The notes under the pieces were generated by a model, which ran no database searches, was not told where the DNA came from, and saw only the letters and a list, made by a program, of their open reading frames with translations. A stretch of 8,740 bases of DNA. It comes from Pseudomonadota bacterium. Its GTDB lineage: Bacteria; Pseudomonadota; Alphaproteobacteria; Rhizobiales; Hyphomicrobiaceae. Below are positions 291-8,740 of the stretch, piece after piece. The stretch lies in NCBI GenBank assembly GCA_021813195.1, contig JAKALI010000141.1, forward strand, positions 1-8,740, given 5' to 3'. Numbering within the stretch: position 1 is the stretch's first letter; each line of letters begins with the position of its first letter. A program made the translations under genes and the position numbers.

Positions 291-1595
291 TCAGCTAAGG
301 CGCGCTTTTGTCAAGAGGCCTCGACAATGCGACGATATGTCAGGTGCGGTAATGTGGCGCTCCCATTGTGAAGCCAGTGCGGCGAAGTTATCAAGGGTCA
401 AAGAGAGTGTGGCAGAATCGGCTGACGCCAGTCTTGCGGACGCCTCGCGAAACACAGCAGAAAGCTCTCGCAGTCGTACGCGCACTAACGTGGAGCGCGA
501 ATGGCGCGCGAGCTTGTCGAGGTCGTGGCTTGTGCACTCTAACACAAAGAGTCGTTCACTAAGCCGCGAGGCAATCAATGCAGTCGAAGCAGCGAGGCGT
601 TTGGTAAAGCGGTGAATGTCTGCAGCTGAGTCATCGCCCCACAGGCTGCTGGCGACGTCGAACAGGACCTCACCCACCTCCTGTTGAACCAGGGCCTGAA
701 CCCCGATTGACCGACCTTTCCGTGGAGCGTGCACAACGGCTGTCTCGGCCTGTCGAAGTACTTGCTCCGAGGGGCCGAGCATAAGCAGCCAGAGCCAGTC
801 CTCATTATAGATGCGGAAGAACGGTCGATTGCGAATTGATGATGGTCGGGTTACGAGGAAGCCGGTGCTCAATCCGCCAGGTCCTCGACGACCAAGGTCG
901 GCTCGCAGTAGGCCGACATGCTCGACGATCATCGGAAACGCCCCGTGCGACCAAGCCACGCTCAGCTGCGCCAGTTCGGGGTAGTGATCGAAACCGAAGC
1001 CGATACGCACGTGGTCACGAATGGACTGATCCGATATGCCCACGAATCGTGTGCCAGCCGCAAGGACCTGTGGGTCCCTCATCAGGCCCAAGGCTTCTTG
1101 CACGCCGAACTCCGGACGCGTACCAGAATCAATTGTAAGGAACTCTGCAGTCGAAGCCTCGACCTCCGTGGCACTCAAGACCATATCATCGTCAACCCAC
1201 ACGATCAGGTCGTCTGGGTCTACCATCGCAGAGGCCAGAAGGGAAAGACAGTTGCGACTTGCGGCGGCGTCCCATTCCGGAGTGCCCGGTGAACGAAAGA
1301 GGCCGAGAAACGACGGTGATGTACTTGCGTTACGGATGATAGATATGATCGACTCATGCATGTCAGAATCGACCACATAGACGGCTACACCAACTTCCGA
1401 GCATCGGAATACCGGTGGAATCGAGAGCGACGAAGCACCGGTCGAATCGTCAAGAATGATCCACGCAACTGCGGACGGTGTCTTACTCCATCTTACAAAG
1501 TGCCCGATCGAACGATCAAGCGCCTGGAGCTCGGATGGGCGGTTGCGGCTACACGTAAGGAACACAAGCCGAGTCGCGTTGACTGACGATCTCAT
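291..1595 (-). CDS. GT-A fold (family 2-like) glycosyltransferase
   Basis: 434 residues, ATG start 6 bases after the stop of the upstream gene, last gene of the operon. The N-terminus has the beta-strand expected of a nucleotide-sugar binding GT-A fold (VFLTCSRNRP, residues 11-20), followed by an I-L-D-D segment (47-50), an A-S-R-N helix (112-115) as in GT2 enzymes, and a DxD-like metal/UDP-sugar motif V-D-D-D-M (134-138). A glycine-rich GPGGLSTGF segment (238-246) precedes Y-N-E-D-W (263-267), where the E-D pair is placed like the catalytic base of inverting GT2 enzymes. There is no signal peptide or membrane segment, so the enzyme is presumably cytoplasmic. Residues about 325-434 form a mainly helical extension with no function I recognise. 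Donor and acceptor cannot be told from sequence; context suggests it glycosylates, or uses a sugar modified by, the upstream carrier/acyltransferase genes. Fold call is firm, substrate unknown. Confidence 0.75.
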   Translation of the reverse strand: MRSSVNATRLVFLTCSRNRPSELQALDRSIGHFVRWSKTPSAVAWIILDDSTGASSLSIPPVFRCSEVGVAVYVVDSDMHESIISIIRNASTSPSFLGLFRSPGTPEWDAAASRNCLSLLASAMVDPDDLIVWVDDDMVLSATEVEASTAEFLTIDSGTRPEFGVQEALGLMRDPQVLAAGTRFVGISDQSIRDHVRIGFGFDHYPELAQLSVAWSHGAFPMIVEHVGLLRADLGRRGPGGLSTGFLVTRPSSIRNRPFFRIYNEDWLWLLMLGPSEQVLRQAETAVVHAPRKGRSIGVQALVQQEVGEVLFDVASSLWGDDSAADIHRFTKRLAASTALIASRLSERLFVLECTSHDLDKLARHSRSTLVRVRLRELSAVFREASARLASADSATLSLTLDNFAALASQWERHITAPDISSHCRGLLTKARLS

Positions 1596-1601
1596 TGTTG
1601 G

Positions 1602-2738
1602 TCAGCGCTTCGAAATGTGCCTGCGAAGTACCCTCGGGCAGTGAACAGCCCCAGCGACCGTAACCTCGACCGGAAAACAGGCTTCAAACGAGGGATTCGC
1701 TCTAAGGCCACCCCCGAGCGTCTGCCTGAGAACTTCGCCATTGTCTCGTGCTGTCGCATGGTCCGAAAAGGCGAGTGCCGCGCCGAGAGTGCCGGAGGTG
1801 TAGACGCCGCAGACTACGATTACAGTGCGGTCTGGATTGAACGGGTTGGGAGCCCGCAAGAAGTACCCATAGTCAACCTCTAGGCGCCCAGTGGAATCGA
1901 ACTGCGGCACATACTCTCGCTTCTTGAAAAATGCTCTATCGCAGTCGCTGCCGTATGAAATTGCTGCGTCAGTGAGACGAAGGACGTCGCGGCAGACATG
2001 ATTGCCGGTACCATTGGGATCACCAGGACCACCGATGACCACCAGGTCGCCGTGAAGCGCCTCCGTCGGGACGGCATCAGACGCGAAGCGATCCACTCGC
2101 GAGTGTGGAAAGGAGCGCGAGAGAAAGGTGGCGACTTCGAATAGGGCATCACGGTCTTCGAGGCCGTCGATGAACAGGTAATTCGCTTCATCGCGAGAAG
2201 CGAAGCGTGATCGCTCTGTTTCGGGAGCGCACACCAGCGTAATCACACTCGGATTGTACGCGAACCAGTTTCGGCTATTTGTGCGCGAACGCCCGACGTG
2301 AGATCCGTGGACATCCTTGACGGCCTGTGCAATCCGCGTTGCGGCAACGCGAACGAGCGCCGCCGGGGAGGCGTACTCGCCAACCAACGTATCGACAACG
2401 TCTGACGGTAGCTTGGTGCCGGCCTTCATCATGGTCACGCACGGCCGATTGAGTGCCGTCAGGTAACCGAGTTCAAATAGCACATTTGGTCGCGTCCCAG
2501 TCAGGTCGAAGATGCCGATGCTGCATTCTTCGAGCTCCTGTCGCACGATGCCTGGCAGTCCTTTGCCGTATTCCCTCGAAACAAAGAATGGGAGCAGAGT
2601 GACGCTCAACCCTGAGCGGTGCAGCTCAGTTGTCGCGCGTTTGCAGGCAGAGGTGATCGCGCGCCGAAATGCGGTAACCCCGCCCTCGTAGTGTCTGTCC
2701 CCAAAAGGATGGCCGACAAAGATCCGAAGCTCCGTCAT
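1602..2738 (-). CDS. two-domain TIR-like / nucleoside-deoxyribosyltransferase-like protein
   Basis: 378 residues; its ATG overlaps the stop of the acyltransferase gene (ATGA at 2738-2735), so translation is probably coupled. The N-terminal domain (about 1-145) has an R-I-F-V-G-H-P-F strand (5-12), then I-F-D-L-T-G-T-R-P-N-V-L-F-E-L-G-Y (76-92). This D-L-T-x-x-x-P-N-V-x-x-E-L-G pattern is that of the TIR-like and nucleoside 2-deoxyribosyltransferase-like families, with Glu89 at the catalytic glutamate position. Such domains bind or cleave nucleotides such as NAD or nucleosides. The C-terminal domain (about 160-378) carries D-L-V-V-I-G-G-P-G-D-P-N (231-242), D-Y-G-Y-F-L-R-A-P-N-P-F-N-P (289-302) and G-V-Y-T-S-G-T-L-G-A-A (311-321); it looks like a coherent conserved domain, but I cannot name it. 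No membrane segment. It could be a nucleotide-cleaving effector, a regulator sensing a nucleotide, or an enzyme acting on a nucleotide-linked intermediate. N-domain family is fairly sure; role is open. Confidence 0.7.
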   Translation of the reverse strand: MTELRIFVGHPFGDRHYEGGVTAFRRAITSACKRATTELHRSGLSVTLLPFFVSREYGKGLPGIVRQELEECSIGIFDLTGTRPNVLFELGYLTALNRPCVTMMKAGTKLPSDVVDTLVGEYASPAALVRVAATRIAQAVKDVHGSHVGRSRTNSRNWFAYNPSVITLVCAPETERSRFASRDEANYLFIDGLEDRDALFEVATFLSRSFPHSRVDRFASDAVPTEALHGDLVVIGGPGDPNGTGNHVCRDVLRLTDAAISYGSDCDRAFFKKREYVPQFDSTGRLEVDYGYFLRAPNPFNPDRTVIVVCGVYTSGTLGAALAFSDHATARDNGEVLRQTLGGGLRANPSFEACFPVEVTVAGAVHCPRVLRRHISKR

Positions 2739-3400
2739 AGACGCTCGTACTCACCGAACGAAGTAGCGTCGGGCAAGCGTCGCGGAGAGAGGATGCCGCG
2801 CCAGGCCGATACAGGCGAGAGCCGCCCGCGGTAAAGCACCTGAAACGCGGGCACGTCGCAACGGACGATTTCCCCAGCAGCCACATACGACCGTTCTCCG
2901 ATCTCGATTCCGCCCAGAATTAGCGCATCTTGGCCGACCACAGCTCCCTTCCGAATGATCGGAGAGGGTTGCACAAGCGTGTCCCAGTCAGCGACGGTGC
3001 CCCCGTGGCGGTAGCTGTGCGCCATAGTGCCCATAAACGTGACGTCATCCTCAAGCACGGCACGGTCGTCGACGTTTCCACCCACAATACACCGAGCGCC
3101 GATGTGACACTGATCGAAGACGTGAATGCCGTACAGTAAGCGAGTATCGACGCCGATGACTGATCCCGAGCCCACGCGGCAGAAGTGGTCAAGCGAGACT
3201 CGGGCCGCGAGTTGAGCACCGTCCTCTATCACGCAATGAGCGCCGATCACGACGCCATCACCGATTGAAGTGGGAGCAGACGGCCGCGCCGTCGCGGGGT
3301 ATCCTACACAACTGCCAGCGCCGACGGAAACCGCGGCGCCCCACGATACGTCAGCTGCTACAAAAGCAGGAGTGCCGATGGCGGTAAAGAGGTCAGGCAC
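2735..3400 (-). CDS. left-handed beta-helix (hexapeptide) acyltransferase
   Basis: 221 residues from a GTG start at 3400. I chose this over the longer frame from 3526 because the extra 42 residues lie inside the hydrolase gene, and the GTG has a GAGG six bases upstream and overlaps the hydrolase stop by 8 bases. Residues about 15-180 are imperfect hexapeptide turns ([I/V]-G-x-x-x-x, e.g. S-I-G-D-G-V-V-I-G-A, I-G-V-D-T-R, H-I-G-A-R-C-I-V-G-G), the signature of trimeric LbetaH transferases that move acetyl or acyl groups from CoA or carrier protein to sugars or amines. M-A-H-S-Y-R-H (126-132) offers the likely catalytic histidine (His128), followed by a loop with W-D-T-L, typical of sugar acyltransferases. 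The C-terminal tail after about 185 is non-repetitive. Located next to a carrier protein, it is a good candidate for transferring the carrier-bound acyl group to a sugar. Could alternatively use acetyl-CoA. Confidence 0.8.
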   Translation of the reverse strand: MPDLFTAIGTPAFVAADVSWGAAVSVGAGSCVGYPATARPSAPTSIGDGVVIGAHCVIEDGAQLAARVSLDHFCRVGSGSVIGVDTRLLYGIHVFDQCHIGARCIVGGNVDDRAVLEDDVTFMGTMAHSYRHGGTVADWDTLVQPSPIIRKGAVVGQDALILGGIEIGERSYVAAGEIVRCDVPAFQVLYRGRLSPVSAWRGILSPRRLPDATSFGEYERL

Positions 3401-4199
3401 GAAGGACCTCGCGGCATTGTTGTTCAATATGCGCGAACACGAGTCCGTAGTTAGCCATAGTTCCTGGAGAGGTGCCGTCGAGATCGCCAGGGCTAACGAA
3501 GCCGTGGTCGGCATTCGGTACTTCAATCAATGATGCCAGAGGAGTGAGTGAAATCACGCGACGCGATTGCGCGATCGGCACATCTCGGTCTTCCACGCCG
3601 TGTATGATGACGATTGGAAAAGTCGACGACTTCAGGGCACCAGTCACGTCGATAATAGAGATATCGTTGACTAACGGACGCGCGAGCCGGAGGACTGAGT
3701 AATCGAAGAAGCCCTGCGATGCTAAGTTCTGCCGCCAGTCTCCACAGGTCTTGTCGATGTCTGCGAGATAGTCCAGAACCGGAGCGCATAAGAAGAGCTT
3801 AGCGGGCTTGGAGGTAAGCGCAGAAGCCCACGCTGCAGTGACGCCGCCGCTGAAACTCACGGCGAAGATGAACGTGGGTAAAGCTGGATCGGGGAAATGC
3901 GAAAGCAGGTGTTCATATGCTGCGTTGACATCGTTAATGATGCCACCAAGCGAGAGGTCAGTGGCCGGTATACCAGAGGACGCGCCATGGCATCGGTAAT
4001 CGAAGCGAAGACTCGCGATGCCCAGAGTGCGCAGGTGCTCTGAAAGCTGTGTGAAGAAGCCCCACTCCTCACGGTCCGCGGTCATGCCATGGACTAGAAT
4101 GGCACGACCATTGAGCGTGCCGGTCGGCGTTGTGACGGTTCCTTCCAAGACCAGACCGTCAAAACTCGTGAAAGTCGCGGTGTCGGAATCGGTAATCAT
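3393..4199 (-). CDS. alpha/beta hydrolase (thioesterase/esterase-like)
   Basis: 268 residues from ATG at 4199, preceded by GAAGGA three bases away. The same frame opens at 4316, but the extra 39 residues overlap the carrier-protein gene, so the shorter start is preferred; the carrier gene then ends 13 bases upstream. The fold is visible: oxyanion-type L-V-H-G-M (35-39), F-D-Y-R-C-H-G (66-72), nucleophile elbow F-A-V-S-F-S-G-G (112-119) with Ser115, H-G-V-E-D (200-204) giving the acid Asp204, and A-D-H-G-F (230-234) with His232. The elbow is A-x-S-x-S rather than the usual G-x-S-x-G, a mild oddity. No signal peptide, so it is probably cytosolic. The family includes esterases, acyl-peptidases and type II-like thioesterases; placed directly after a carrier protein, an editing or releasing thioesterase is the most natural role, but an acyltransferase or independent esterase remains possible. 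Confidence 0.75.
   Translation of the reverse strand: MITDSDTATFTSFDGLVLEGTVTTPTGTLNGRAILVHGMTADREEWGFFTQLSEHLRTLGIASLRFDYRCHGASSGIPATDLSLGGIINDVNAAYEHLLSHFPDPALPTFIFAVSFSGGVTAAWASALTSKPAKLFLCAPVLDYLADIDKTCGDWRQNLASQGFFDYSVLRLARPLVNDISIIDVTGALKSSTFPIVIIHGVEDRDVPIAQSRRVISLTPLASLIEVPNADHGFVSPGDLDGTSPGTMANYGLVFAHIEQQCREVLRA
3407..3410 (-). promoter_or_regulatory. ribosome binding site deciding the acyltransferase start
   Basis: GAGG on the minus strand, six bases before GTG at 3400. It lies inside the last codons of the hydrolase gene and supports the shorter, GTG-started acyltransferase over the frame opening at 3526. Confidence 0.5.
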
Positions 4200-4202
4200 T
4201 GT

Positions 4203-4208
4203 TCCTTC
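4203..4208 (-). promoter_or_regulatory. ribosome binding site deciding the hydrolase start
   Basis: GAAGGA on the minus strand ends three bases before ATG at 4199. It is the strongest Shine-Dalgarno match in the operon and favours the 268-residue hydrolase over the longer frame opening inside the carrier gene. It falls in the short stretch after the carrier-protein stop. Confidence 0.55.
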
Positions 4209-4212
4209 GCTG

Positions 4213-4461
4213 TCAGCGGTGGTCAGTGCGTGGAGCGCCATGCTGTGCGCATAATGCGGCGATCGCCTTAACTGACGAGTACTGAAGAACGGCTGAATCA
4301 TCAATCGAAATGTCAAGACGTTCTTCCAGCGCCAGAATGACGTGCACCTGTGCCAAGCTGTCCCATGCGGGGTGGTGATTGAGCGCCGCTTGTTCGTCGA
4401 CCTCCTCGGGACGGACGCCCAAGGCTGACGCTACGATGCTGATGGCGAAGTCATTGCTCAC
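4213..4461 (-). CDS. stand-alone acyl/peptidyl carrier protein
   Basis: 82 residues, the usual length of a free carrier protein. It starts at GTG, sharing GTGA with the stop of the adenylating enzyme gene, so the two are translationally coupled. The four-helix carrier pattern is clear, with H-P-A-W-D-S-L-A-Q-V (30-39); Ser35 of D-S-L is the 4'-phosphopantetheine attachment site. The following helix I-L-A-L-E-E-R-L-D-I-S-I (42-53) is the classical recognition helix with its acidic E-E pair. It needs a phosphopantetheinyl transferase from elsewhere; none is in the window. Its partner for loading is certainly the adjacent adenylating enzyme by position; hydrolase and LbetaH acyltransferase downstream are likely users of the loaded form. 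The W-D-S-L form resembles carriers of surface-glycan and small-molecule clusters more than fatty-acid ACP. Confidence 0.88.
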   Translation of the reverse strand: MSNDFAISIVASALGVRPEEVDEQAALNHHPAWDSLAQVHVILALEERLDISIDDSAVLQYSSVKAIAALCAQHGAPRTDHR

Positions 4462-5930
4462 GAATCACCACCGCTAAGAAGTGTGACAAGTTCCGCATAG
4501 TTCACTTTGCCGCTCGATAGTCGGGGGAAGGAGTCGACTAACAGAATCTGGCTTGGCACGGCGTGATCAGGTAGGTGCTGTCGCGTGAGCTGGCGGAGAG
4601 TCACGTCATTGTGCTTGTCGATGCCACGCACCGCAGCGATAAGGCGACCCTGGTGGACGAATGCATGGGCTTCCGTTACACCCAGTTGCATGAGAGTGGC
4701 TTCGATCTCGCCTAGCTCAAGGCGGTGGCCGCGGATCTTTACTTGGGAATCCAGCCGACCCGCGAAGTACCAATTCGACTCGATGACGCGAATTTGGTCC
4801 CCTGTGAGGAAGGCTGGTTTCGGTCCAATTGGAGTCTGCACGGTCGTGAAGCGCGCGTCTTCAGCGGCACTGGCGCCGAGATAGCCCGCCCCGATATTGT
4901 CGCCAGCTATAATCATCTCGAATGTCTGGTCGACGGCTGGCGAACCGTTAGGTGCAAGGAGTACTTGCCAGCCCGGAATCGGCCTGCCAATCGCCGCACT
5001 TCCATGACACGCAGTCTTATAAGACTGGCACGTGAACTCCTGAAACGTGCAGAACAGGGTACCCTCAGTTGGACCGTACGTATTGAAGAGTCGAAGATCA
5101 GCGCACCTCGAAAACAAGATTGCCACGTGGTGCTCGTAAAGCGGCTCGCCGCAGAAGGACGCAAGTCGGAGCGACTTCAGCGTGTGTGAGTGCTTGGGTG
5201 CTTGTTCGACGATTGCAGGAATCAACGATGGCACCGAGTGCCAGATTGTGATGCGCTCCCGATCAATGAAGCGGCCCGGAAGTAAGCGGTCAGCCGCCTT
5301 GACGACTGGCACGAGCGTACTGCCGCTCAATAGTGCTCCCAAGATGTCCACAATACTGAGATCAAAACCAAGACGTGAGAATTGGGCCCAGCGATCTTCG
5401 GGGCCGGGAGCAAATGCGTCCCGCAGCCAATCAAAGAACGGCGATAGCGATCTTGTTCGTATCAGCACCCCTTTTGGCCGACCAGTCGACCCTGACGTGA
5501 AGATGACATATGCAATATCTGCGGCGGTCTCGATGGAACTAGATGGTTCTGTGCTCCGAGATTCCCCTGGCGAGAGGGTGCGAATCCCGGTCGTCCAAGT
5601 GGTCGCGGAATCGATGCAGATGATGTCCGGGTGGAACGTGTCGACGATCGCGCGGAGCCTTGATTCTGGTAGCGAGTTGTCGACTGGACAATAAGTGCGC
5701 CCAGCGAGGTAACATCCGAGCTGAGCTGCGTAGGCATCCGCACCCTGAGGCAAGGCAAGGAGGACGCGTCCTTCGCGACTTACCGATCGAAAGGCTCCAG
5801 CATACCTCGTAGCAAGCTCATAGAGAGCTGCGTAGGAAAGCGCTCCGTTCGCGTCATCGACCGCGACTCTGTCGGGGGCAGCTCGTGCGACGTGGCGGAT
5901 CCGTAAGCCGATCGGATTGTGCACGTTCAT
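4458..5930 (-). CDS. stand-alone DltA-like amino-acid adenylating enzyme (AMP-binding)
   Basis: 490 residues, first gene of the operon; it would activate a carboxylic acid, most likely an amino acid, with ATP and load it on the carrier protein downstream. Core motifs are all present: A3 Y-V-I-F-T-S-G-S-T-G-R-P-K-G (141-154), A4 F-D-L-S (189-192), A5 N-T-Y-G-P-T-E-G-T (283-291), A7 F-L-T-G-D (374-378), A8 G-R-L-D-S-Q-V-K-I-R-G-H-R-L-E-L-G-E-I-E (391-410) and A10 with catalytic Lys475 (L-S-S-G-K). Length and the pieces W-H-S-V-P-S (230-235), F-C-G-E (259-262) and F-N-T-Y-G-P-T-E (282-289) match the DltA/free-standing type rather than a multidomain NRPS. By eye against GrsA, the pocket reads about D-L-V-H-S-C-T-L-F-K: the Asp that binds an alpha-amino group is kept, but the rest differs from D-Ala DltA, so the substrate is unknown. 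ATG at 5930 has a weak GGGA 7 bases upstream. Confidence 0.88.
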   Translation of the reverse strand: MNVHNPIGLRIRHVARAAPDRVAVDDANGALSYAALYELATRYAGAFRSVSREGRVLLALPQGADAYAAQLGCYLAGRTYCPVDNSLPESRLRAIVDTFHPDIICIDSATTWTTGIRTLSPGESRSTEPSSSIETAADIAYVIFTSGSTGRPKGVLIRTRSLSPFFDWLRDAFAPGPEDRWAQFSRLGFDLSIVDILGALLSGSTLVPVVKAADRLLPGRFIDRERITIWHSVPSLIPAIVEQAPKHSHTLKSLRLASFCGEPLYEHHVAILFSRCADLRLFNTYGPTEGTLFCTFQEFTCQSYKTACHGSAAIGRPIPGWQVLLAPNGSPAVDQTFEMIIAGDNIGAGYLGASAAEDARFTTVQTPIGPKPAFLTGDQIRVIESNWYFAGRLDSQVKIRGHRLELGEIEATLMQLGVTEAHAFVHQGRLIAAVRGIDKHNDVTLRQLTRQHLPDHAVPSQILLVDSFPRLSSGKVNYAELVTLLSGGDS

Positions 5931-5964
5931 TTAGTAATCCCGCCGATTTGATCGAAGTCGCGTC

Positions 5965-5970
5965 ATAGTA
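5965..5970 (-). promoter_or_regulatory. possible -10 box of the leftward operon
   Basis: TACTAT on the minus strand, about 35 bases upstream of the ATG at 5930, fits a TAnnnT -10 element and would give a leader of some 25-30 bases. The nearest TTGAC-like -35 (5997-6002) is 26 bases away, too far for a standard sigma-70-type promoter, so either another -35 is used or the match is chance. Confidence 0.3.
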
Positions 5971-6162
5971 GGTATGGCTGCGTTCCCGCGGGCACGCGTC
6001 AAGTGGCTAATCAATAGGCAGTCGCCTTCGCCGACCCGCCAGACTAATAGGCGTACTGGCGTTCGACTTCGAGCTGCTCCGGAGTTCTTGACAGCGGCAG
6101 CCTTGCGGCTCCAGCGGACGCAGTTGGCACCGCGGGTTTGGTTTTTCCCTCTCTAGGCGATC

Positions 6163-6219
6163 AGTTCCGTGCGATGTTCTGCACGTTCTGCTAAATGTCA
6201 ATGTGGCAATGTGTTACAC
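6163..6219. repeat. short direct repeats and a 9-base palindrome
   Basis: GTTCTGC occurs at 6176-6182 and 6185-6191 (9-base period), with an imperfect copy GTTCCGTGC at 6163-6171. CAATGTG follows at 6199-6205 and 6207-6213 (8-base period), and the second runs into the palindrome GTGTTACAC (6211-6219). The lower G+C here than on both sides and the position between divergent units suit operator sites, but no family of regulator is recognised. Confidence 0.35.
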
Positions 6220-6443
6220 CACGACTGAAGTTCGGTAAGTCGTGAGGAAGTTCTCATGTGGCGCCTGTCCCCCAGGGGGGCCGAGGGGCTGCCAAGCGTG
6301 AACTGAGAGGTGCTCGCTTCGGCGAGTGTCCGGAGCGAGGCGGCCCGGCTCAGCAAGTCGACGGTCACCCTGACGACGACGTCCATCTTGGCGGGCAAGT
6401 TCTTCCGCCATACGGTCTCCTTTGTCAGGTTCTGGAATGGCAA
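6198..6443 (-). pseudogene. gene remnant of unknown function
   Basis: A minus-strand frame ending with TGA at 6198-6200 shows strong G/C at third codon positions from about 6450 down to about 6258 (roughly nine of ten codons), then loses it. It has only a TTG at 6443 as possible start and is closed upstream by TAG at 6498-6500. The visible protein contains W-R-K-N-L-P-A-K-M-D-V-V-V-R-V and L-G-S-P-S-A-P-L-G-D-R-R; I do not recognise it. It overlaps the first bases of the rightward gene. Most likely a broken piece left when the two blocks were joined; a short real gene starting at TTG 6443 or ATG 6386 is the alternative. Confidence 0.35.
6310..6329. other. hairpin with UUCG tetraloop
   Basis: CTCGC (6313-6317), TTCG, GCGAG (6322-6326) form a perfect five-pair stem capped by the very stable C(UUCG)G loop when read as plus-strand RNA, extendable by G-U pairs. 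It sits about 110 bases before the rightward gene and lacks a T-run, so it is not a standard terminator. It could be a leader structure or just a by-product of the coding remnant. Confidence 0.3.
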
Positions 6444-8740
6444 GTCGTCGCGGGAATCTCCAGCCAGCGCATCGAGGGTACCGATACCAGGACATCGCTA
6501 CAGCATACGTCCTCGTCCGAGGGCTGGTCGACCGTTTCGATGAAGTAGTGGTCGACCGAAAGCAGGTCGACGACGACCGCATCGACGACCTTGAGGTGCG
6601 AGCCAACGGGCGACGGCTAAGGCAGCAGTTCAAGTCAAGCCAGAGCGCCACGCGCCCACTCTCTGAGGACGATTTTGTCGGCTCGGGCTCAAGCCTACGC
6701 ATCGACCGCCTAGTGCTGACGTACGTTCGGGCGGGTGTTTCGCCGGCTGACGAATACCGCCTCTGCGCCACTTGGACGCCGCCGGCGGGTGACAGTCCTC
6801 TGGCTGGACGCTTAGAGCCGGTCGCGGCAACTCCAACTCTGGCAGGCTGGCCAGCCCGTTGCTTCCGGCTGCGTGGCGAGGCGATCTGGCCAACAAATGG
6901 CTCACCGGTCTGGGCGCCCCTTACAACATACGCGTTGTCGGGTGCTGAGTTTGGGCGTGGGGAGTTTCTCGCGTTCTGCGAGCACTTCGTAATCGAATTG
7001 GACCTACCAGTCGCGTCAGCCGATCTGACGGCACCAGGTCCGCTCGAGCGTGCGCTAGTCGAGGAGTTGGCAGACCGTGTCGGTGTCGGACGCTACCCGA
7101 ACCATGGACGCGCCCCGGCCGACGTAGCGGCACTCGCGATTTCGCTCGCCAATCTGGCGCGTACGCAGGCGGCGTCGCTCACTCCGGCGGATGTCGAGCG
7201 CGACCTGGACATCCGTGTGGACTTTGGACGGATCGCGCAGTCATTTCCGCTCGACAGAGCGATCTTCCACGACAGGCCCACGTTCCGCCGGGGTCTACGC
7301 GAGGCCGCACTCGCCGGAGCGCACCAGCTGGTGGTCGCACCGCCGGGCGCCGGCAAGTCATGGGAGCTTACGCGACTCGCTGACGAGCTTCGGGACGCGG
7401 GCGCAGTCGTGGCTCGGCATTACTGTTACCTGGAGCCGGGCGATAACCTCGTTGAGCGTCGGGTCACCACGGATGTGTTCTTCGGCAATCTGCTCGCCGA
7501 GCTGGTCGACGCCGAGCCCGCGCTGCGAGGCTCAGGAGGCGCTCGGTACGCCGCGGGCATCACGGAGCTCGAGGCTGCGCTGACCAGCGCGGCGGTCCTC
7601 GGCCGGCCTGTTGTCCTCATCGTAGACGGGCTTGATCACATCGCACGGGTCCGCGCGGACGCCCGGGGACTCGCCAGTGAGGAGACAGACATCGTGGAGC
7701 GGCTGGCGACGCTCAACGTTCCGACGGGTGTCGCAGTCGTAATCGGTTCGCAGCCTGGCGAACACCTCGACCCTCTTCATACCCGGTGGAGGAGCGTGCT
7801 CGTCACACGTCCGCTGCCCACCTGGTCGTCGCCCGACGTTGAGGCACTGGCCGACCGCCACGGGGTGTCACGCGCGCTTGTCGCGGTCGGCATGGACGAT
7901 CACCACGTCGCCCTCACCCGAAGAACACTCGCGGACCGGGCTGACGGGAATCCACTGTACACCCGCTACTTGGCGCTCGGGCTCGTGACAGGGGTACAGG
8001 ACGGGACGATCGCCTCGCCCATCGACTGGATAGAAGGGGCCCCGGCCATTTCTGGTGACATCGCGGTCTACTATGCGCACCTATACCGGACCGCGAGCTC
8101 CCAGGCGCAGGCCATCGCCGACTTGCTAGGTGTGATCGACTTCGCGGTTACCGAAAGCGAATTGCGCGAGATGCTTCCGGCATTGGTCGGCGCTTGGATA
8201 CCACTCGCTCTCACGCGACTCACACCGATTCTTTCCTCGGCTACTGGGCAAGGCGGCGTCCGTGTCTTTCATGAAAGCTTTCGGCGGTTCATGACACAGG
8301 AGCTTGCGCGCCAAGGTCGGTCGCCAGCTGATGCGCTCGCGCCCGTCATCAACTGGCTCGAGGAGCGCGGGTTCTTCTGTGATGCAAAAGCGTATCGGTT
8401 CCTGCTGCCCGCGTTGCGGCGAGCCGGGCGTGGTGACAGCGCACTCGCGCGCGTGAGCGTCACCTTCGTATCGGACAGCATAGCGCAGGCACACCCGATC
8501 GACGCAATCCAGCGGAACTTGGCACTTGCCGCCGATGTCGCCGCCGAGGTTCGTGACTGGCCGGCGCTCGTCCGCTGCGTCGAACTTCACCGCTCGGCAT
8601 ACACCTGCTTTGATGACGCACAGAACACTTGGCACGACTTCTGGGCGACATACCTCGCGCTGTTCGGTCCCACGGCGCTGGCCGAACGCCTGCTATTTGA
8701 CGGACGACCCACGCAGTCCCGCACGCACGGACTCTACGCG
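6437..8740 (+). CDS. Avs-like defence protein: Cap4-like nuclease fused to STAND NTPase (3' end beyond window)
   Basis: 768 residues are visible from ATG at 6437; no stop before the right edge. ATG is the first good start after an in-frame stop at 6371, with a weak AGG seven bases before it. Residues 1-110 look like a Cap4/DUF4297-type PD-(D/E)XK DNA nuclease: G-Y-R-Y-Q (14-18), acidic D-D-D (45-47) and I-D-D-L-E-V (49-54), then Q-Q-F-K (63-66) where the Q-x-K carries the catalytic lysine. A linker of about 170 residues leads to the STAND core: Walker A A-P-P-G-A-G-K-S (301-308), Walker B V-V-L-I-V-D-G-L-D-H (392-401), sensor-like V-I-G-S-Q-P (435-440), D-G-N-P-L-Y (503-508) and V-F-H-E-S-F-R-R-F (610-618) of a winged-helix-like region. 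From about 640 the chain is helical, probably the start of a repeat sensor. Known members recognise phage proteins, oligomerise and cut DNA. Target here is unseen. G/C-rich codons contrast with the leftward operon. Confidence 0.85.
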   Translation, partial: MASRRGNLQPAHRGYRYQDIATAYVLVRGLVDRFDEVVVDRKQVDDDRIDDLEVRANGRRLRQQFKSSQSATRPLSEDDFVGSGSSLRIDRLVLTYVRAGVSPADEYRLCATWTPPAGDSPLAGRLEPVAATPTLAGWPARCFRLRGEAIWPTNGSPVWAPLTTYALSGAEFGRGEFLAFCEHFVIELDLPVASADLTAPGPLERALVEELADRVGVGRYPNHGRAPADVAALAISLANLARTQAASLTPADVERDLDIRVDFGRIAQSFPLDRAIFHDRPTFRRGLREAALAGAHQLVVAPPGAGKSWELTRLADELRDAGAVVARHYCYLEPGDNLVERRVTTDVFFGNLLAELVDAEPALRGSGGARYAAGITELEAALTSAAVLGRPVVLIVDGLDHIARVRADARGLASEETDIVERLATLNVPTGVAVVIGSQPGEHLDPLHTRWRSVLVTRPLPTWSSPDVEALADRHGVSRALVAVGMDDHHVALTRRTLADRADGNPLYTRYLALGLVTGVQDGTIASPIDWIEGAPAISGDIAVYYAHLYRTASSQAQAIADLLGVIDFAVTESELREMLPALVGAWIPLALTRLTPILSSATGQGGVRVFHESFRRFMTQELARQGRSPADALAPVINWLEERGFFCDAKAYRFLLPALRRAGRGDSALARVSVTFVSDSIAQAHPIDAIQRNLALAADVAAEVRDWPALVRCVELHRSAYTCFDDAQNTWHDFWATYLALFGPTALAERLLFDGRPTQSRTHGLYA

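Follow-up and report, generated by a model that had tools for sequence, protein, structure and literature searches.

The stretch of DNA analysed here (the window) comprises 8,740 nucleotides of contig JAKALI010000141.1 (GenBank assembly GCA_021813195.1, Hyphomicrobiaceae) and carries a cassette of six genes. In it a TIR-like domain, fused to a C-terminal domain that we call Cdom, is encoded together with a free-standing adenylation enzyme (A), a carrier, a hydrolase, an LbH acyltransferase and a glycosyltransferase-like protein (GT). The gene set is found in other genomes with its active-site residues conserved, Cdom is linked to GT and acyltransferase genes, and the output fused to Cdom is exchanged, the TIR glutamate being lost where a CHAT domain is present. 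The cassette is read as a signal-making and signal-sensing system (probability about 0.42), in which the enzymes would make an (amino)acylated sugar, Cdom would sense it and the fused output would respond.

Layout of the cassette

An open reading frame (ORF) check of the window found six minus-strand ORFs at the positions that the earlier note had given, in the order A-carrier-hydrolase-LbH-TIR/Cdom-GT (catalytic residues, here and below, were assigned by eye from alignments):

4458..5930, minus strand: A, free-standing adenylation enzyme (Pfam/NCBIfam matches; DltA-like but below the DltA cut-off)
4213..4461, minus strand: carrier, PP-binding (Pfam; phosphopantetheine serine in WDSL)
3393..4199, minus strand: alpha/beta-hydrolase (Pfam; putative Ser/Asp/His triad invariant in six loci; start inferred from homologues)
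2735..3400, minus strand: LbH (hexapeptide-repeat) acyltransferase (Pfam; GTG start inferred from homologues)
1602..2738, minus strand: TIR-Cdom protein (N-terminal domain of TIR/nucleoside 2-deoxyribosyltransferase (NDT) fold, aa ~1-145, with Glu89; C-terminal sensor-like Cdom, aa ~155-378)
291..1595, minus strand: GT (GT-A type motifs DDS, DDD and YNEDW)

Following the ends of homologues, the hydrolase start was placed at the ATG at 4199 rather than the TTG at 4316 of the ORF list, and the LbH start at the GTG at 3400 rather than the TTG at 3526. Neighbouring genes overlap by 4 bp (A/carrier, LbH/TIR-Cdom) or 8 bp (hydrolase/LbH), or are separated by 13 bp (carrier/hydrolase) or 6 bp (TIR-Cdom/GT). 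The earlier note took the six genes to form one unit, and this is borne out by these overlaps (4-8 bp) and gaps (6-13 bp) and by the recurrence of the families together elsewhere.

The cassette in other genomes

A pattern scan with alignment A1 over a collection of 84,980 genomes gave five loci (L001-L005). L001 (Chitinophagaceae) and L002 (Bacteroidales) share the order GT-hydrolase-LbH-TIR/Cdom-A-carrier. L003 (Flavobacteriales) is arranged like L001 minus the leading GT, which is found further on, on the opposite strand and in two pieces; these pieces (12811-15045) are separated by transposase genes (13220-14354; rve, HTH_Tnp_1). L005 (Planctomycetota) reads carrier-GT-hydrolase-LbH-Cdom, with a contig that stops inside the carrier gene and does not include A. 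L004 (Pseudonocardiales) has hydrolase-LbH-TIR/Cdom plus a different GT (GT2). The earlier note proposed to look for the same six-gene order; the six families are found together in L001, L002 and, with a split GT, L003, and only in part in L005 and in L004 (three families). As the families cluster in L001, L002, L003 and L005, and three of them also in L004, the six-gene grouping is not due to chance, and as the order is permuted among the window and these loci, it is the gene set that is kept and not its order.

A and carrier as constant members are ruled out by L004, which has neither of them within the 21 kb read and whose genome has generic A domains only (best 196 bits, versus 851-916 for cassette A members). 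Two further GT genes, a GT4 and a GT2, lie 7.5-9 kb beyond the L004 cassette (18645-20756); one passes the 'GT4-conflict' Pfam cut-off (28.9 vs 26 bits), and ordinary GT4 models score higher.

Cdom as the constant element

Searches with A1 gave matches in 3 of 395 genomes of the class of G001, 1 of 294 of the phylum of G005 and 10 of 394 of the class of G004, the query genomes included. In the whole-genome searches, here and below, the top 4-12 (up to 14) candidates per genome or fewer were scored, and absences are not firm. Cdom is present in ten newly found genomes, with no TIR recognised. One of them, G320 (L090), has the order GT-hydrolase-LbH-Cdom, and the N-terminus of its Cdom protein is a transmembrane (TM)-like helix by eye. 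In G1029 (L095), the genes for an unknown-Cdom protein and a GT25 face LbH-hydrolase, and Cdom and GT25 are arranged in the same way in G779 (L087), which was found via LbH. Eight more actinobacterial genomes encode a helix-turn-helix (HTH)-Cdom protein with a GT of the window-type family and a GNAT (GNAT Pfam-confirmed in all eight sets; HTH above cut-off in four of the five proteins tested).

The earlier note had asked whether the TIR-like gene is always kept. It is not, as GT, hydrolase and LbH accompany a TIR-less Cdom in L090, L087 and L095, and the eight actinobacterial genomes, with GT and GNAT beside HTH-Cdom, also contradict TIR as a constant element. TIR as an obligatory element is ruled out by these loci, and the constant element is Cdom.

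All but one (L087) of 17 Cdom loci, with 21 Cdom genes in total, were recruited via Cdom, and most of the counted genes are themselves rows of the search models. All 17 have an acyltransferase, either LbH or GNAT, and 16 have a GT of one of two recurring families (GTy or GT25). The exception, L004, has the adjoining GT2, and no GT of the window family was found in the genome search of G004, where Cdom is present. A GT model built from the window and L001-L005 alone found the GTs of L088-L092 and L096-L099 (L090 and actinobacterial GTs at E 4e-10 to 3e-28). In reverse, a GT-first search matched 5 of 346 genomes, all five beside Cdom (two of the five not query rows), and an LbH-first search 4 of 541 genomes, all four beside Cdom (one not a query row). 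These reverse tests mainly show that the GT and LbH families were not found in Cdom-less genomes among the top candidates scored. The situation that the earlier note had named as counter-evidence, A, carrier and acyltransferase genes without the TIR-like protein inside ordinary capsule or antibiotic clusters, did not turn up, with the proviso that three of the four LbH matches are query rows. Two loci lean towards it and nevertheless keep Cdom, namely L087, with FxLD lanthipeptide genes nearby, and L004, with its two further GT genes. The L087 neighbour is a lanthipeptide cluster (1520-7319) with an FxLD-system methyltransferase (above cut-off) and a gene that is LanC-like by eye.

A Cdom-only search gave at least 1722 proteins at E <= 1e-6; among the matches listed, the named Cdom proteins include many HTH regulators of Nonomuraea and kin. 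Four of the actinobacterial loci (L088, L089, L098, L099) have converging HTH-Cdom pairs with GT and GNAT genes in between. They adjoin genes for adenosine deaminase and an amidohydrolase, identified by Pfam in L088 and by eye in the other three. In L092 and L097, HTH-Cdom, GT and GNAT have NAD salvage genes in their vicinity, one for a nicotinate phosphoribosyltransferase and one of the isochorismatase family that is nicotinamidase-like by eye (both by Pfam in L092 and by eye in L097).

The TIR-Cdom protein has no match in the plasmid or phage collections. In the plasmid collection LbH (L001 copy as query, E <= 1e-15) and the window GT are also without a match, and HTH-Cdom has a single short, partial one that covers 17% of the query. 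In IMG/VR, 46 loci match the TIR-Cdom alignment, all in the TIR region only, and there are two weak LbH relatives and no GT relative. These collections thus give no indication that phages carry the cassette.

Exchange of TIR and CHAT outputs

The TIR-like N-domain is only weakly matched in Pfam (Nuc_deoxyrib_tr 5e-4, CAP12-TIR 2e-3, both below cut-off). PF05014 scores 20.7 bits against the window protein (gathering score 28.8) and matches 10 of 25 TIR-type members at E <= 0.1. The PADLOC 'Effector, TIR' model PDLC00733, which we take to be a CBASS effector model, matches the TIR domain in 21 of the 25 homologues. The predicted structure of the domain (pLDDT 87) matches STING-TIR, plant TIR and NDT folds alike, and the candidate catalytic residue, Glu89, is present in 24 of the 25 TIR-type proteins. 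Cdom has a predicted fold resembling BcsB, GH N-domains and an S-layer wall anchor in a fold search, and no SAVED match in Pfam and PADLOC profile scans. The earlier note's view of an undescribed TIR fusion is supported.

In L005 the Cdom protein extends into a CHAT (caspase-like) domain (PF12770 1e-9; PADLOC SAVED_CHAT 1e-6), and a search with this part as query gave at least 159 Cdom-CHAT proteins. An alignment was made of L005, 25 TIR-type proteins and 107 of the 120 listed CHAT-type proteins (>= 560 aa, 13 shorter ones left out). Of the TIR-type proteins 24/25 retain the TIR Glu, of the CHAT-type 1/108, and the CHAT His is found in 106/107 (one gap) and the Cys in 107/107. Cdom columns W158, D195, D197, G236, N246, G311, G316 and N333 do not vary in either class. 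This pattern suggests that Cdom fusions have an active TIR or an active CHAT, not both. In a tree of 62 Cdoms (L087 not included), the CHAT-types are one clade (SH-aLRT 99) inside a poorly resolved group with the TIR-types; the TM and L095 rows are very long-branched and their placement is unsure. A 400-aa gene that overlaps the end of the Cdom-CHAT gene of L005 (4650-5852) has no significant Pfam or NCBIfam match; its product is possibly a protease substrate or partner.

The NDT-like fold of the N-domain brings in another explanation, a mini natural-product pathway in which a MilB-like N-glycosidase would free a base, the GT would re-glycosylate it, and A, carrier and LbH would acylate or aminoacylate it to a peptidyl-nucleoside-like metabolite. 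Such a pathway is distinctly improbable given that 107 of 108 CHAT-type relatives have lost the Glu, the absence of the N-domain from L090, L087, L095 and the HTH types, where GT and acyltransferase nevertheless stay, and no exporter among the seven window proteins scanned with Pfam. Output swapping and the tight linkage of GT and acyltransferase to Cdom would also fit a toxin-protection pair, with a TIR or CHAT toxin restrained by GT/acyltransferase modification of Cdom and freed when the modification is lost. However, this leaves the free-standing A and carrier unexplained and explains the HTH outputs less simply, and is very improbable.

The enzymes of the cassette

The A protein passes the Pfam cut-off for AMP-binding (PF00501, 7e-57) and is just below that of TIGR01733 (amino-acid adenylation; 299/317 bits over nearly the full model). 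It is below both DltA cut-offs (212/476 and 194/560 bits), and distantly akin to the exosortase-A-associated AMP ligase TIGR03098 (117.6/592 bits). The A proteins of L001-L003 are 36-37% identical to that of the window, and nine positions, presumably the amino-acid-selecting sites of GrsA, are identical in all four by eye. These shared residues suggest one conserved amino-acid substrate, although the common pattern, read by eye at these positions, corresponds to no substrate that we could name. The A enzyme is predicted to load the amino acid on the carrier, which has a PP-binding match (Pfam, 1e-8) and its Ser within WDS in 5/5 aligned loci. A second hint of amino-acid activation comes from L090, where a broken ligase remnant directly after the TM-Cdom gene (9753-10383) matches LAL_C2, the L-amino acid ligase C-terminal domain (1e-15), and is perhaps a former stand-in for the adenylation enzyme.

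The hydrolase has a hydrolase-fold Pfam match (3e-13) and a putative triad S116/D205/H233 (numbering of alignment row 1) kept in 6/6 loci, and is distantly akin to the exosortase-A-associated hydrolase TIGR03100 (21/168 bits). LbH has a hexapeptide Pfam match (9e-13) and is NeuD-like. The window GT has no Pfam match above chance; two homologues weakly match GT2/TAGT, and the family has common RN, DDD and YNED columns, with DDD in 5/5 aligned members. The chemistry set proposed in the earlier note (A, carrier, acyltransferase, GT) is supported by Pfam and, for the GT, by family motifs; these enzymes may attach an amino acid to a sugar.

The weak kinship of A and hydrolase to TIGR03098 and TIGR03100, and the NeuD-like LbH, would also fit surface-glycan modification, in which activated acyl or aminoacyl groups would be put onto a cell-surface sugar and Cdom would report on the glycan, through gene regulation in the HTH types. 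The BcsB and S-layer anchor type of the Cdom fold and the abundance of HTH-Cdom plus GT agree with this, and L004, with GT2 next door and GT4 and GT2 7.5-9 kb further, leans towards it. Glycan decoration does not usually involve TIR or CHAT outputs, however, and no capsule or O-antigen cluster was noted when the ORFs listed for the other loci were read by eye, flippases, polymerases and signal peptides not having been searched for. This explanation is judged unlikely.

Gene neighbourhoods

Beside the window cassette, on the plus strand, a divergent gene that runs off the window (6437-8740) encodes a STAND-like AAA ATPase, which AAA_16 matches weakly and Avs1b partially; the N-terminal ~250 aa of this protein are Cap4/Mrr-type nuclease-like by eye, with no Pfam match. 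L095 adjoins the type I restriction-modification genes HsdM and HsdS, and L002 an SLFN/AlbA_2 gene. In L001, an AAA_11/AAA_12 helicase lies ~3 kb before the GT gene, with a PADLOC MkoA match confined to its helicase half, although it may be a general helicase. A radical SAM protein encoded downstream of the L001 cassette (14680-15756) has a moderate match to the PADLOC prokaryotic viperin models. Two L004 neighbours and one L005 neighbour have no match in the PADLOC test, which covered 10 neighbour or fusion proteins. The defence context of Cdom cassettes is suggestive only. The defence-like character raised by the earlier note is supported by the PADLOC matches of the output domains ('Effector, TIR' for the TIR type, SAVED_CHAT for the CHAT variant).

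Proposed function

Cdom is constant while its partner varies (TIR, protease, DNA-binding, membrane) and the best reading is therefore a sensor whose outputs can be exchanged, comparable to SAVED in TIR-SAVED and SAVED-CHAT. GT and acyltransferase are its constant companions, and these are thus the enzymes most likely to make or alter its ligand; in the TIR/CHAT class an amino acid would be added by the A/carrier pair. In the proposed sequence of events, A would activate the amino acid and load the carrier, the hydrolase and LbH would transfer or tailor the acyl group, and the GT would build the sugar part. The (amino)acylated sugar, made or altered upon a trigger such as infection, would be bound by Cdom and thereby activate the output fused to it. 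For the window cassette this would be a TIR NADase or nucleotide N-glycosidase that stops growth; relatives would respond through a CHAT protease or through DNA binding. The sensor role of Cdom, its ligand's origin in the cassette enzymes, the NADase activity of TIR and the defence link are inferred.

Several observations weigh against this sensing cassette. NDT/MilB N-glycosidases align to the N-domain equally well or better than TIRs, and the carbohydrate relation of Cdom is one of fold similarity only (Foldseek best E 1e-3). One TIR-type protein (P0025) has Gln for the TIR Glu and no CHAT, and another protein (P0204) has the aligned Glu together with CHAT. L004, besides having neither A nor carrier near its cassette, carries further GT genes within 10 kb; these GT neighbours and the LAL_C2 remnant of L090, which speaks for the cassette as a sensing system, roughly balance. 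The HTH-Cdom versions suggest a regulatory role in gene expression rather than immunity. Lastly, the reverse tests include few matches outside the query rows, and the actinobacterial loci are related, so that their counts are not independent, with GNATs being common genes.

A wider proposal, somewhat doubtful at present, is a new form of immune or stress signalling with an aminoacylated or acylated sugar, not a nucleotide, as messenger. It would be made by carrier chemistry and a GT and read by a carbohydrate-type sensor with TIR, CHAT-protease or transcription-factor outputs. If true, this would be a bacterial alarm pathway with an amino-acid- or sugar-derived messenger in place of cyclic nucleotides or NAD derivatives, and the unnamed domain of at least 1722 proteins would be defined as a sensor that pairs with TIR and CHAT, two domains that SAVED effectors have as well. 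Should the link to defence not hold, Cdom, its GT/acyltransferase link and the TIR-or-CHAT pattern would still be a direct route to the function of many unannotated proteins.

Comparison with known systems

In TIR-SAVED and SAVED-CHAT effectors of CBASS and type III CRISPR, a ligand-sensing SAVED domain is fused to TIR or a CHAT protease (PMC11229360). The Cdom proteins are like these in matching the PADLOC TIR effector and SAVED_CHAT models, but have no SAVED match and carry a sensor-like domain of BcsB/S-layer/GH-N-type fold, and the cassette co-encodes GT, acyltransferases and carrier chemistry. A CBASS-type output is present (PDLC00733 in 21/25, CHAT in L005 and relatives), while no CBASS CD-NTase was matched among the window proteins with Pfam and PADLOC.

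Thoeris is a TIR-based defence in which the amino-acid conjugate His-ADPR can be the signal (PMC11204291), a precedent for such conjugates as signals of TIR systems. The seven window proteins match no model for ThsA (SIR2-SLOG or macro) or ThsB. Unlike in Thoeris, the cassette TIR is fused to a presumed sensor, and the amino-acid chemistry would sit on the synthesis side.

Fold and conserved Glu of the N-domain are like those of MilB, DNPH1 and NDTs, but the domain is fused to Cdom, and the CHAT class can do without the Glu. As in DltA/DltC and other free-standing A-carrier pairs, A enzyme and carrier are separate; unlike in Dlt, A is below the DltA cut-off, the partners differ, and the window genes include no DltB or DltD. 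The cassette A and hydrolase score far below the cut-offs of the exosortase-A-associated ligase and hydrolase, and no exosortase match was found among the window proteins. The six genes are not Avs/AVAST parts, only the divergent neighbour at 6437-8740 matching Avs1b, partially. A literature search of open-access papers, bioRxiv preprints not included, gave no description of the gene set. CBASS, Thoeris, Dlt and NDT each share some features with the cassette and none of them the full set that defines membership; thus, it is rated as a new kind of system, with moderate confidence in its mechanism.

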